Part shown: positions 13,329-17,719 of the stretch, in pieces
Position numbering within the stretch: position 1 is the stretch's first letter
Layout: each line of letters starts with the position of its first letter
Assembly: GCA_028285215.1 (NCBI GenBank)
Contig: JANQPZ010000173.1
Location: 1 to 33,903, forward strand
Direction: 5' to 3'
DNA from: Rhodovibrionaceae bacterium
GTDB lineage: Bacteria; Pseudomonadota; Alphaproteobacteria; Kiloniellales; DSM-21159
Length of the DNA stretch: 33,903 nucleotides
Program-made: the position numbers and the translations under genes
Notes under the pieces: generated by a model
What the model was told of the DNA's origin: nothing
What the model saw: the letters and a program-made list of their open reading frames with translations, nothing else
The model's database searches: none

Positions 13329-13520
13329 GACCCGAGAGTTTCGGGCTCGGGCATCGCGCTTGCACTTCGGTCTCAAAGCAACGCTGACGGGGCGCGCCCG
13401 GCCTTGCGGGATCTGAAACGCAAGATATCAGTCTCGGTTGACGGTCAATCTGGTGTTAATCACTCGATGCGAGAATTTCAGGTGAGGGACCGCCAGTCTT
13501 GCGGCGACCGGGAGCACGGC

Positions 13521-14036
13521 ATGCCGCCCGATTTCACGTCCGCTGTCGCCGACCTGCGCGCGCGTATCACCAATCCGGAGCAGTCGGCCTTCTTCGACTA
13601 CTGGCTGGCCTGCTTCAAGCCTGGCGGACTCCCGGCACGCAGCGACTTGGATCCACTCGATTTTCCCAGCCTCTTGCCGCGGATCGCACTCATCGACGTT
13701 CTGCGCGAGCCTGGCGGACTGGCGTTTCGCTATCGCCTGGCCGGAACGGAGATCGCCAGCCGCGCCCGCCGCGACCCGACCGGCAAGCGTTTCGACGAGC
13801 TTTATGAAGGCGACTACCTGGCGCAGGCTCTCGCCGTGTATCAGGAGATCGCAACGTCGGGTCTGCCACATCTCTCCGACCGTACCTTCCTCATCCAGGG
13901 CGGCACGGAAGCCCTGGATTACGAGCGCCTGATCCTGCCGCTGGCCGGCGACGGTGCAACGGTCGACATGCTGGTGCTCCTGATCGCGGTGATCGATCAG
14001 CGGCGCCTCGACGATGCACTGAGGGCCTTTCGGTGA
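13521..14036 (+). CDS. PAS_5-like sensory/hypothetical protein A
   Basis: The 171-residue soluble protein resembles the PAS_5 family of short alphaproteobacterial PAS proteins: NPEQSAFFDYWLACFKPGG, then LPARSDLDPLDFPSLLPRIALID (a W/P-rich entry helix), then FRYRLAGTEIASRARRDPTGK and LPLAGDGATVDMLVLL. There is no output domain, so it would act as a stand-alone ligand sensor or partner. ATG 13521 has GGGAG 7 bases upstream; a longer frame from 13404 is open but its first 39 residues are not family-like. It overlaps the next gene by 4 bases. Function unknown. Confidence 0.78.
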   Translation: MPPDFTSAVADLRARITNPEQSAFFDYWLACFKPGGLPARSDLDPLDFPSLLPRIALIDVLREPGGLAFRYRLAGTEIASRARRDPTGKRFDELYEGDYLAQALAVYQEIATSGLPHLSDRTFLIQGGTEALDYERLILPLAGDGATVDMLVLLIAVIDQRRLDDALRAFR

Positions 14037-14599
14037 TCCCAGGCACCTCCGACCCCGAGGCCGCCTCCGTGCCAGGCGATGCCACCGAGATGGCGACGCG
14101 GGCGGCTGCGAACCGCAGGACTCTGGAACAGGTCGAGCGAGAAGCCGCGAGTTGGCTGACGCGCGACTTCGCAGGAGCCATGCTTGCGATCCACCCGCCT
14201 GACGCTCTGCCGCCCCGGAGTGCCTTCGATCCTGTCGAGGTGCCCAAGCTTCTGCCTCATCTCATTCTGGTGACGGTGGAGCGCAACCCTTACCGCTTCC
14301 TCGTCAAGCTGACGGGCCAGTCGATGCGCGACGCCATCAAGACGACTCTCAGCGGGCACTACCTGCAGGACTTCCTGGAAACGATGCCGAGCATGCGCTT
14401 TCCCATCGAGGACCGTATGCAGGTCTGCGAAACCGGCTTGGCCGTCTACGGCCTGCGCCAGCCGCGCACGCAGATTGCGTTCGACTTCGCGCGTATCGAG
14501 TACCTGCACATGCCTTTCGCCAGTGACGGCTACCGGGTCGACCGGATCCTCAGCCTGTTCGCCTACGAAGGTGACAACCGCAGCGCCTTTCGGCGCTAG
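14033..14599 (+). CDS. PAS_5-like sensory/hypothetical protein B
   Basis: The 188-residue protein is a diverged paralogue of its upstream neighbour. Compare PPRSAFDPVEVPKLLPHLIL with protein A's RSDLDPLDFPSLLPRIAL, and the shared FLVKLTGQSMRDA / FRYRLAGTEIASRA blocks. GTG 14033 overlaps the upstream stop (GTGA), indicating coupled translation and a fixed ratio of the two proteins. An ATG at 14090 is a shorter alternative. No catalytic or output domain is present. The TAG stop (14597-14599) lies in the second REP-like element. The two may form a heterodimer; that is inference. Confidence 0.75.
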   Translation: MIPGTSDPEAASVPGDATEMATRAAANRRTLEQVEREAASWLTRDFAGAMLAIHPPDALPPRSAFDPVEVPKLLPHLILVTVERNPYRFLVKLTGQSMRDAIKTTLSGHYLQDFLETMPSMRFPIEDRMQVCETGLAVYGLRQPRTQIAFDFARIEYLHMPFASDGYRVDRILSLFAYEGDNRSAFRR

Positions 14600-14658
14600 A
14601 GCAGGATCGCCTTAGGTGGACCCGCTCCAGCGAGCCCCCCTAAGGGGATCCTGCTCTA
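14597..14658. repeat. Palindromic REP-like element, copy 2
   Basis: A 62-base element with arms TAGAGCAGGATCGCCTTAGG and CCTAAGGGGATCCTGCTCTA, 19 of 20 bases complementary, and a central inverted GCTCCAGCGAGC. Its first three bases are the stop codon of PAS protein B. It also separates this plus-strand operon from the convergent minus-strand genes beyond, so it may act as a terminator or mRNA end. Confidence 0.85.
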
Positions 14659-14719
14659 ACTATGGACATAGCGGGCAATTCACCTCTCAGGCAGAAGCGC
14701 TTCGCTTCCGTTCAGGACG

Positions 14720-14857
14720 TCAATCCTCCTCCAGGCTGCGATCGAGCACCTTGTTCTGCTGCCCTTTCCAGTCCATCCAAAGGGGGACCACGAGCCCGCC
14801 GATCACCCCGGCGACCAGGCCCGCGACGAGCGCATAAACGAACCCGCGGCGTCTCAC
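14720..14857 (-). CDS. 45-residue membrane protein overlapping the oxidoreductase stop
   Basis: The frame begins with GTG at 14857-14855, overlapping the upstream TGA stop as GTGA, and encodes MRRRGFVYALVAGLVAGVIG followed by GLVVPLWMDWKGQQNKVLDR and a short acidic tail. This is a basic N-terminus, one glycine-zipper-like hydrophobic helix and an amphipathic tail. The overlap and the sensible topology support translation coupled to the flavin oxidoreductase. No family recognised. It could be a membrane anchor or a partner of the oxidoreductase. Confidence 0.6.
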   Translation of the reverse strand: MRRRGFVYALVAGLVAGVIGGLVVPLWMDWKGQQNKVLDRSLEED

Positions 14858-15522
14858 ACCACGTTCTTCTCGACGATCGGCCGCTGGGCGGCGATCCGGT
14901 CGTAGCCGAAGCGGCCGGCGACGATCAGCTCTGCAAGAGCACGGCCGACGGCGGGGCTTTGCTGCAGACCATGGCCGGAAAAGCCGTTGGCAAAGAGGAA
15001 GTTGGGAACCTCCGGGTGAGGTCCCAGGATGGCGTTGGCATCGAACGGGGCTCCTTCCGCCCGCTGCACCTCGTAGTTCGCCCGCAGGATCGCCGCACCG
15101 GCGTCGCTGGCCAGGAAGAGGTAGCCGCTCTCCTGCAGTTGCACGTCGGGCTGCTCACCTTCGACCTCAAGGATCTCGCCCAAGGCCTTGAGGAAGGCGA
15201 CGCCGAACTGCGACATACGGATGTTCTCCGGCGTCGAGAACTGCTGCCGAATCGAGCCGGCCGAGCGCGCCGTGGCACCGGTCTGGTAGCTGGGGTCGCG
15301 CTCAACGACACAGACACTGCCGTCGAAGTCCGGGTGCGCTGCGAGAAAGTAGGCCACAGCCGAGCCAATCACACCGCCGCCGGCAATCATAATATCGAAG
15401 TTGTGACTGCCGGTCTTGAGGCGTGTTGCGGGAGGGGTCAGGCTCGGGTCGTTTATGGCGCCGGAAAGTAACAGCGCCTCAGGCGAAAGGCGATTGCCAA
15501 GCGAAGCCATGCCTGAGAGCAT
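14854..15522 (-). pseudogene. FAD-dependent oxidoreductase (DAO/FOXRED1-like) with internal deletion
   Basis: The 222-codon frame keeps both FAD-binding ends of a D-amino-acid-oxidase-fold enzyme. The N-terminal part is FDIMIAGGGVIGSAVAYFLA, then ATARSAGSIRQQFS; the C-terminal part is ILGPHPEVPNFLFANGFSGH and LQQSPAVGRALAELIV. Complete relatives run to about 380-400 residues from the GGG motif. Here the chain jumps from RAEGAPF straight to DANAILGPHPE, so roughly 200 residues of the substrate domain are missing, in frame. A smaller gap is seen near VAGRFGYDRIA. Such a protein is unlikely to be an active oxidase. The start is uncertain: ATG 15522 adds about 42 residues before the usual N-terminus. 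An intact deletion derivative or an assembly collapse are alternatives to a pseudogene. Confidence 0.7.
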
Positions 15523-15676: not shown

Positions 15677-17719
15677 ATGACGAAGCCGCAAAACGGCGCG
15701 GCACGTTGCGCCGTGCTTGTCGGGCCCTATGGCAGTGGCAAGACAAGCCTGCTCGAGGCCCTGCTCTTCGCCGCCGGCGCGACAGACCGCAAGGGCTTGA
15801 TGGGCGATGCTTCCGCAGAGGCAAAGGCCCGGGAAATGAGCGTCGAGCCGAATTTCGGACAGGCAAGCTATCTGGAAGAGCCCTGGTTCTTCGTCGATTG
15901 CCCCGGGTCCGTCGAACTGGCTCAGGATACCCAGGATGCCTTGATCGCCGCCGATATTGCGGTGGTCGTGGCGGAGCCGGAGGCGGCCAAGGCGCAGGCC
16001 CTGATGCCGCTGATGAAGTTCCTGGACGACCGGCAGATTCCGCACCTGCTCTTCATCAACAAGATGGACAAGCTGAGCCAGAGTGGCGGCGAACGGGTGC
16101 GCGACCTGCTGGCGGCCTTTCAAGCGGCCTCTTCCCGTCCGCTGGTCCTGCGTCAGGTCCCGATGCGCGAAGGCGGCGCCATTGCCGGAGCCGTCGACCT
16201 GGTCAGCGAGCGGGCCTGGCACTACAAGCCGCATGCGCCCTCCGATCTTGTGGAGATGCCCGGCGACCTGCGCGACCGGGAGACGGAGGCGCGACAGCAG
16301 TTGCTCGAGACCTTGGCCGACTTCGACGACGACCTGCTGGAGCAGTTGCTGGAAGACAAGGTTCCGGCCAACGACGAGGTCTACCGCCATCTGACGGCCA
16401 ACCTGGCGGCCGATCGTATCGTACCGGTCTTTCTTGGCTCGGCCGAGCAGGACAACGGCGTCCGCCGATTGCTGAAGGCACTGCGTCACGAGACGCCTGG
16501 TCCGGAGGCCGCGGCCGGGCGCCTTGGCGTTGCGCCCAAGGCACCCCAGGGTGGCGGAAACGGAGGCGGGGAAGCCTGTGCGGCAGTGGCTCGCACCCTC
16601 AACCTCGCCCACGCAGGCAAGGTTTCGGTGGCCCGGTTGCTGCGCGGCAGTCTGAAGGAAGGCGACCGTGTGGCCGGTCAGCGGCTGGCGGCGCTGTTCC
16701 GCCTGCAAGGCAGCCAACTGGAGAAGGTGAGCGAGGCCAAGACCGGGGATCTGGTCGGGCTGGGCAAGCTGGAGGGCCCCGCCACCGGCGATCTGGTCTG
16801 CCCCGAAACCACGGCGGCCGCCGACTGGGCGGACCCCTTGCCGCCCGTCTACGCGCTGGCGATCCAGCCAAGGAACCGCAGCGACGAGGTGAAGATGAGC
16901 GCCGCCTTGAGCAAACTGCTTGAGGAAGATCGTTCCCTGTCGCTGGAGCCCGACCGGGACACCGGCGAAACCAAGCTCTGGGGCCAAGGCGAAGTGCACC
17001 TGCGGATTGCTCTGGAAAAGCTTTCCGGTCGCTTCAATGTCGAGGTCGATGCCGAGCTGCCGCAACCGGCGTACAAGGAGACGATCCGTCATGGCACCGA
17101 TTATCACGCGCGCCACAAGCGTCAGACCGGAGGCCATGGCCAGTTCGCCGACGTCAAGGTAGCCATCGCCCCACAACCACGCGGTGCCGGCTTCGCCTTC
17201 CATGATCGGATTGTCGGCGGTGCCATCCCCAAACAGTTCATTCCTGCTGTCGAGTCCGGGGTGCTGGAGGGCTTGCGAAACGGTCCCCTCGGCTTTCCCG
17301 TGGTCGACGTGTCGGTGACGCTGAACGACGGTCAGTTCCACGCGGTCGATTCGTCGGAAATGGCCTTCAAGACCGCGGGGCGCATGTCCATCCAGGACGG
17401 CCTGCCGGATTGCGATCCTGTGTTGCTGGAGCCGATCCATCGCGTGGCGATCTCGGTGCCCAACGCCTACACCAGCAAGATTCATGGCCTGCTCTCCAGT
17501 CGGCGGGGGCAGATCCTCGGCTTCGACGCCAAGCCGACCTGGGAGGGTTGGGACGAAGTGCAGGCCTATCTGCCGGCGGCGGAACTGCGCGATCTGATTA
17601 TCGAACTCCGTTCGGTGACTCAGGGCAGCGGCAGCTTCACCGCCAGTTTCGATCATCTGTCGGAGCTGACCGGCCGGCTGGCGGACCGCGTGGTTCAGGG
17701 GCGCCAGGCAGCGCAGTAG
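15677..17719 (+). CDS. Elongation factor G-like protein
   Basis: The 680-residue translational GTPase is of the EF-G-like class that accompanies true FusA in many bacteria. It has P-loop GPYGSGKT (16-23), G4 INKMDK (127-132), domain II, and domains III-V, with KRQTGGHGQFADV in domain IV. Switch I lacks the RGITI motif (AREMSVEPNF instead), and G3 reads DCPGS (74-78), so the catalytic His of DTPGH is Ser. GTP hydrolysis must be weak or differently triggered. The role of this subfamily is poorly known (ribosome rescue, stress or recycling have been proposed for EF-G paralogues). ATG 15677 has GGGGAGGA 6 bases upstream. It is divergent from the oxidoreductase remnant. Confidence 0.9.
   Translation: MTKPQNGAARCAVLVGPYGSGKTSLLEALLFAAGATDRKGLMGDASAEAKAREMSVEPNFGQASYLEEPWFFVDCPGSVELAQDTQDALIAADIAVVVAEPEAAKAQALMPLMKFLDDRQIPHLLFINKMDKLSQSGGERVRDLLAAFQAASSRPLVLRQVPMREGGAIAGAVDLVSERAWHYKPHAPSDLVEMPGDLRDRETEARQQLLETLADFDDDLLEQLLEDKVPANDEVYRHLTANLAADRIVPVFLGSAEQDNGVRRLLKALRHETPGPEAAAGRLGVAPKAPQGGGNGGGEACAAVARTLNLAHAGKVSVARLLRGSLKEGDRVAGQRLAALFRLQGSQLEKVSEAKTGDLVGLGKLEGPATGDLVCPETTAAADWADPLPPVYALAIQPRNRSDEVKMSAALSKLLEEDRSLSLEPDRDTGETKLWGQGEVHLRIALEKLSGRFNVEVDAELPQPAYKETIRHGTDYHARHKRQTGGHGQFADVKVAIAPQPRGAGFAFHDRIVGGAIPKQFIPAVESGVLEGLRNGPLGFPVVDVSVTLNDGQFHAVDSSEMAFKTAGRMSIQDGLPDCDPVLLEPIHRVAISVPNAYTSKIHGLLSSRRGQILGFDAKPTWEGWDEVQAYLPAAELRDLIIELRSVTQGSGSFTASFDHLSELTGRLADRVVQGRQAAQ

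Follow-up and report, generated by a model that had tools for sequence, protein, structure and literature searches.

The window that we analyzed (33,903 nt from the draft genome of a Rhodovibrionaceae bacterium) contains a DAO-type FAD-dependent oxidoreductase gene whose middle was probably removed by a real and recent deletion that left an in-frame remnant. This remnant is most likely non-functional, and we consider it likely to be a recently inactivated gene (i.e., a young pseudogene). The ORF at 14854-15522 (minus strand) encodes 222 aa and its frame is open throughout, with neither stop codon nor frameshift. This ORF fuses in frame two parts of a DAO-type (PF01266) oxidoreductase, one N-terminal and FAD-binding, the other C-terminal and carrying GFSGHGLQQ, which confirms the initial annotation of the sequence, where the two ends of the enzyme had been described as directly joined. 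The features of the locus are the following (G001 and G002 denote the two other genomes of the genus used for comparison):

14854..15522, minus strand: gene remnant (DAO-type FAD-dependent oxidoreductase) with an open frame of 222 aa (the G002 orthologue has 423 aa); from the ORF, Pfam and orthologue comparison
15454..15456, minus strand: ATA codon where G002 and G001 have the ATG that is probably their start, a likely start-codon loss
15397..15453, minus strand: leader segment, 24 bp longer than that of G002; from the comparison with G002
15046..15396, minus strand: kept N-terminal FAD-binding part (residues about 43-159), with GGGVIGS and RSAGSIRQQFS
15040..15052, minus strand: junction of the 603-bp deletion, codons 159/160; from the comparison with G002
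14857..15045, minus strand: kept C-terminal part (residues 160-222), with FDANAILG and GFSGHGLQQ
14908..14918, minus strand: second junction, 24-bp in-frame deletion (YVSLDLSR of G002 gone); from the comparison with G002

Domain content of the remnant and length of its homologues

The remnant scores 93.8 bits against the Pfam profile DAO (PF01266), which is above the curated cut-off of 27.9 bits. It aligns to this profile in two stretches, the best of which places residues 43-159 on positions 1-115 of 353, and the profile, with its FAD and substrate domains, is not covered over its full length. For comparison, a full-length relative reaches 205.4 bits and covers positions 1-353 of 353. No NCBIfam cut-off was reached by the remnant or by the full-length form. 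Solved relatives align to the N-terminal part of the remnant and, separately, to residues 160/161-204/209; these C-terminal matches sit near the C-terminal ends of the solved proteins themselves (313-356 in 1y56_B and 322-369 in 1zov_A). The separate matches to the N-terminal part and to the near-C-terminal ends of solved proteins indicate that the middle of the enzyme is absent. The glycine-rich positions G48, G49, G50, G53 and G180-G185, which are invariant in the homologues, are all present in the remnant. We take the glycine-rich dinucleotide-binding motif of the N-terminal part and the GFSGHG segment of the C-terminal part to be the defining motifs of DAO oxidoreductases.

We searched for the short form among homologues at three levels. 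In the family, matches at E ≤ 1e-15 were obtained in 11 of 12 genomes, and the window alone presents both protein ends within a single short frame. The remaining genome (G004), scored 100% complete, presents no match to the gene at this threshold, which indicates that loss of the gene is possible. Across the order, matches at E ≤ 1e-25 were obtained in 40 of 61 genomes, and that of the window is the only one to reach residue 222 in one piece. The other short frame of the order (285 aa in G039) stops at a contig end, and G009 carries a full-length copy in addition to an 89-aa piece (G009:C341) that runs to the end of its contig. Finally, 28 of 30 named loci, a set that may leave out records from the window's own genome or a very near one, present stop-to-stop frames of at least 385 aa, and the two others (L049 and L064) end with their contigs. 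Judging by their titles, 19 of these 30 loci presumably belong to Alphaproteobacteria. The initial annotation had named full-length homologues that are themselves this short as the finding that would speak against a deletion; none was found in the family, the order or the named loci. We therefore rejected a naturally short family, since no examined homologue is this short and the four shorter frames all hit contig ends.

The large deletion and the genomic context

The neighborhood of the remnant is syntenic with G002, whose orthologue at this position is full length (423 aa). The remnant aligns to it in two matches, with 79% identity over residues 1-160 and 86% over residues 159-222. Given this high identity and the synteny with G002, the likeness is not due to chance. 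The alignment with full-length homologues proposed by the initial annotation was conducted as a translated comparison with G002, in which the query gap amounts to 603 nt, the subject gap to 0 nt, and the frame is the same on both sides. The estimate of about 200 missing middle residues thus becomes 201 codons relative to the G002 orthologue, and the join, previously placed within 15040-15080, lies at about 15045/15046. A recent deletion had been one of the causes envisaged and it is supported by the full-length syntenic orthologue and by this net loss of 603 nt. At the junction, the window reads GAAGGAGCCCC then GTTCGATGCCAACGCC, and G002 reads GAGGGCGCCCCC on the left side and AACAGC TTCGACGCCAACGCC on the right side. 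When read as one deletion, the ends of the gap have one base in common in G002, and the longest exact match between the 120-base stretches around these ends measures 7 bp. The alignment program drew a match of 5 bp (TCGAC) at the ends, which requires an extra gap of 9 bp; a single deletion of 603 bp is the simpler reading of the alignment.

We then searched for the middle part elsewhere in the draft genome and detected paralogues only, with 28% and 31% identity (best E-value: 2.8e-9, at 28%). The control searches worked: G001, G003 and G006 match at E ≤ 4.9e-82 and G002, the source of the query, matches itself at 1.2e-135. Relocation of the middle part within the genome was rejected on these grounds. 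A search for the middle part at the DNA level also found nothing, but was run without control and is not relied upon.

It is also conceivable that the two ends belong to an intact gene and were brought together in the draft assembly, through a collapse or a chimeric contig, and that the cell possesses the full-length enzyme. The genome is indeed a draft (3.99 Mb in 366 contigs, 82.8% complete) and the junction is known from one assembly. However, assemblers work with words of 21 bases or more, and neither the single shared base, nor the 7-bp match, nor the TCGAC match with its further 9-bp gap approaches this length. A collapse driven by a repeat is unlikely because the deletion ends share one base in G002, and it was rejected for lack of a long repeat at these ends. 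Moreover, the same gene presents a separate 24-bp deletion and the ATA codon, and no orthologue of the middle part was found on another contig. We further compared the genome with G002 across 59 orthologue pairs, namely those of the 549 frames of the G002 contig (one stretch of 740 kb) that have an orthologue in the own-genome contigs searched (81 of 366 contigs; 807,532 bases; 12 of them cut at 20 kb). A large internal gap was found in one of the 59 pairs, the remnant gene itself, and no gene was split between frames; 58 of the 59 pairs show no large gap. This ratio of 1/59 is not an unbiased rate because the window was picked on account of the finding. The same comparison yielded 10 indels of 5-15 aa, four of them in two genes of the window including the remnant, and four matches with an internal stop, two of which lie in the window. 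We rejected genome-wide gene decay or assembly gaps, as the large gap is found in the remnant gene only among these pairs. The collapsed assembly that the initial annotation had considered is thus unlikely, in view of the single shared base, the second deletion and the 58 compared genes without a large gap.

Several other observations concern the surroundings of the remnant. A frame of 45 aa with a membrane-like N-terminus lies at 14720-14857 (minus strand), and its initial GTG overlaps the remnant's TGA stop codon. An element of about 115 bp (14597-14711) follows immediately downstream of the remnant and contains an imperfect hairpin of 62 bases (self-match of 84%; RNA fold z-score of −5.5). 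This element is dispersed in its own genome, with at least 78 matches in at least 40 separate places (lower bounds, as 40 of 193 candidates were scored), and it was found 23 times in G001, 30 times in G002 and never in the 10 other relatives searched. It apparently represents a genus-specific interspersed palindromic repeat, as judged from these matches. No Rfam match at gathering score was found anywhere in the window, including this element, and an RNA family at the remnant locus was rejected accordingly. A second small gene (14033-14599) adjoins a PAS_5 gene (13404-14036); its DNA matches a region of G001 and not the syntenic region of G002, and it presents no Pfam match at E ≤ 0.001. On the other side, a divergent elongation-factor-G-like gene (15677-17719; 680 aa), with a GTPase domain and EF-G domains II to V, is common to G002 and G001. 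It may represent a paralogue of EF-G and not the main EF-G.

Further changes, structural damage and selection

A second in-frame deletion of 24 bp is located at about 14910-14916, where the residues YVSLDLSR of G002 are missing and GRFGYDRI is left. In G002, the missing stretch is flanked by the near-identical hexamers GCCGTT and GCCGCT, which would be compatible with slippage. Furthermore, the leader of the remnant is 24 bp longer than that of G002, and the codon at 15454-15456 is ATA where both congeners read ATG. The ATG of the congeners is likely to be the start because several relatives have no ATG much further upstream of the FAD motif. These comparisons suggest that the remnant likely lost its start codon (ATG to ATA). 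Another ATG further upstream (15520-15522) holds the frame of the remnant open; the 66 bases that follow it present 10 changes, three of them at first, two at second and five at third codon positions. The stretch may thus be non-coding, and this spread is suggestive only. The 24-bp deletion, the longer leader and the ATA codon were all absent from the initial annotation.

We counted invariant columns over 25 full-length homologues, taken from a list of 26 from which L049 (cut by a contig end) was left out; proteins outside 250-460 aa, identical proteins and those without the glycine pattern had been left out of the list. Out of 55 invariant columns, the remnant keeps 33, all of them unchanged, and loses 22 (20 with the large deletion and two with the small deletion). 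In the structural model of a full-length relative (pLDDT 92.3; pTM 0.91), the large deletion corresponds to most of the substrate domain and takes 11 of 16 strands and 5 of 11 helices, including the VNAAG segment. We take the deleted meander and strand, and likewise the VNAAG segment, to complete the FAD domain in this fold. The model of the remnant itself presents much lower scores (pLDDT 60.0; pTM 0.41), although it was built with 26 rows and its low score is a hint rather than a proof. Its pLDDT falls below 50 at residues 78-95, 160-167 and 178-187, including the GFSGHG segment. Any product that is made from the remnant would not be expected to act as the oxidase, since most of the substrate domain and a middle segment of the FAD domain are absent.

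The initial annotation had also proposed a functional mini-flavoprotein, in which the 222-aa product keeps both FAD-contacting ends, has taken a new role and owes its open frame to selection. The open frame, the 33 unchanged invariant columns and the low dN/dS of the kept parts relative to G002 (0.076, against 0.06-0.13 for five neighboring genes) are in line with this proposal. There is also no significant excess of amino-acid changes on the branch of the window: nine unique changes were counted in the window and five in G002, against 67 and 80, respectively, for the five flanking genes together (P = 0.26; Fisher test). The ratio of amino-acid to synonymous codon changes is likewise similar (9:27 in the window and 5:20 in G002; P = 0.76). 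However, these counts fit a neutral phase of about 3%, and at most about 11%, of the window branch (a rough estimate), such that the low dN/dS is not decisive, and the lack of a stop in the remnant says little because so few hits are expected. The Ka/Ks check suggested for the retained parts is therefore equally compatible with a very recent event and with continued selection. Rates thus do not separate recent death from continued selection, and recent death is preferred because structural damage, not rates, decides. The deletions took most of the fold and a conserved stretch near the C-terminus with two invariant residues, the start codon is probably lost, the GFSGHG segment is among the poorly modeled parts, and such a form was absent from the other genomes searched (family, order and named loci). 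A functional mini-flavoprotein is thus not supported and appears very improbable; that the product is a selected mini-protein without substrate domain, for instance FAD-binding or subunit-like, deserves hardly any credence.

The kept frame is not by itself evidence of function and needs no special explanation. A single deletion stays in frame by chance in one case out of three, and two deletions in one out of nine. In addition, the case was selected for its in-frame state, as a remnant is noticed only if its frame is open. The earlier reasoning, according to which decay seldom leaves the frame intact, is therefore weak, as the chance is one in three and only such cases are noticed as open ORFs. 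Finally, it seems scarcely credible that in-frame deletions alone were tolerated because translation of the remnant is coupled to that of the 45-aa frame: the GTG/TGA overlap fits this idea and G001 reads ATGA after the gene (into a different downstream frame), but the G002 gene ends in TAG without such overlap, and the 45-aa frame is matchless in G001, G002 and 16 of the 18 other relatives searched, and G004 and G009 yield weak matches to part of it (E about 0.007; 47% over 30 aa), so that it may not be a gene.

Probable inactivation of the gene and comparison with known systems

Our preferred reading is that of a young pseudogene. The ancestor would have possessed a regular full-length oxidoreductase of the DAO family, which 10 of the 11 other family genomes have retained. 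A homology-poor (illegitimate) deletion would have taken 603 bp from the middle of the gene in the lineage of the window, slippage between short repeats probably took 24 bp near the gene end, and the probable start codon would have been lost. The frame stayed open because both deletions happened to be multiples of three, and the inactivation would be young. The changes that disrupt the gene relative to its intact orthologues (the 603-bp and 24-bp deletions, and the loss of 22 of 55 invariant columns) support this scenario. Against it stand the lack of stop or frameshift, the 33 of 33 kept columns, the dN/dS of 0.076 and the two in-frame deletions (chance of 1/9), but these points fit a very recent loss as well as a gene that is still selected.

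By itself, the shortening of one dispensable oxidase gene in one draft genome is of little importance. It nevertheless calls for caution, as a frame that stays open after a deletion does not count as evidence of function, and such remnants score above the Pfam cut-off of the intact family.

The remnant has both protein ends in common with DAO oxidoreductases (PF01266). The nearest solved structure is 1y56_B, the L-proline dehydrogenase of P. horikoshii (a chain named sarcosine oxidase), which was matched by the model of the full-length orthologue (TM-score of 0.85); this model also resembles sarcosine oxidase beta subunits and glycine oxidases. Relative to these enzymes, the window copy is without 201 + 8 residues, and most of the substrate domain is among them. 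In archaea, strains of Haloquadratum are reported to differ by deletions mediated by repeats of 4-20 bp, and the copper-binding domain of a Halobacterium protein was precisely removed via a 32-bp repeat (PMC3119063). As in pseudogenes formed by internal deletion, some of them between short repeats, the gene described here has intact counterparts in related genomes and is not needed by at least one relative. It differs in that its large deletion presents a single base of homology (in G002), both deletions are in frame and no stop has yet appeared.
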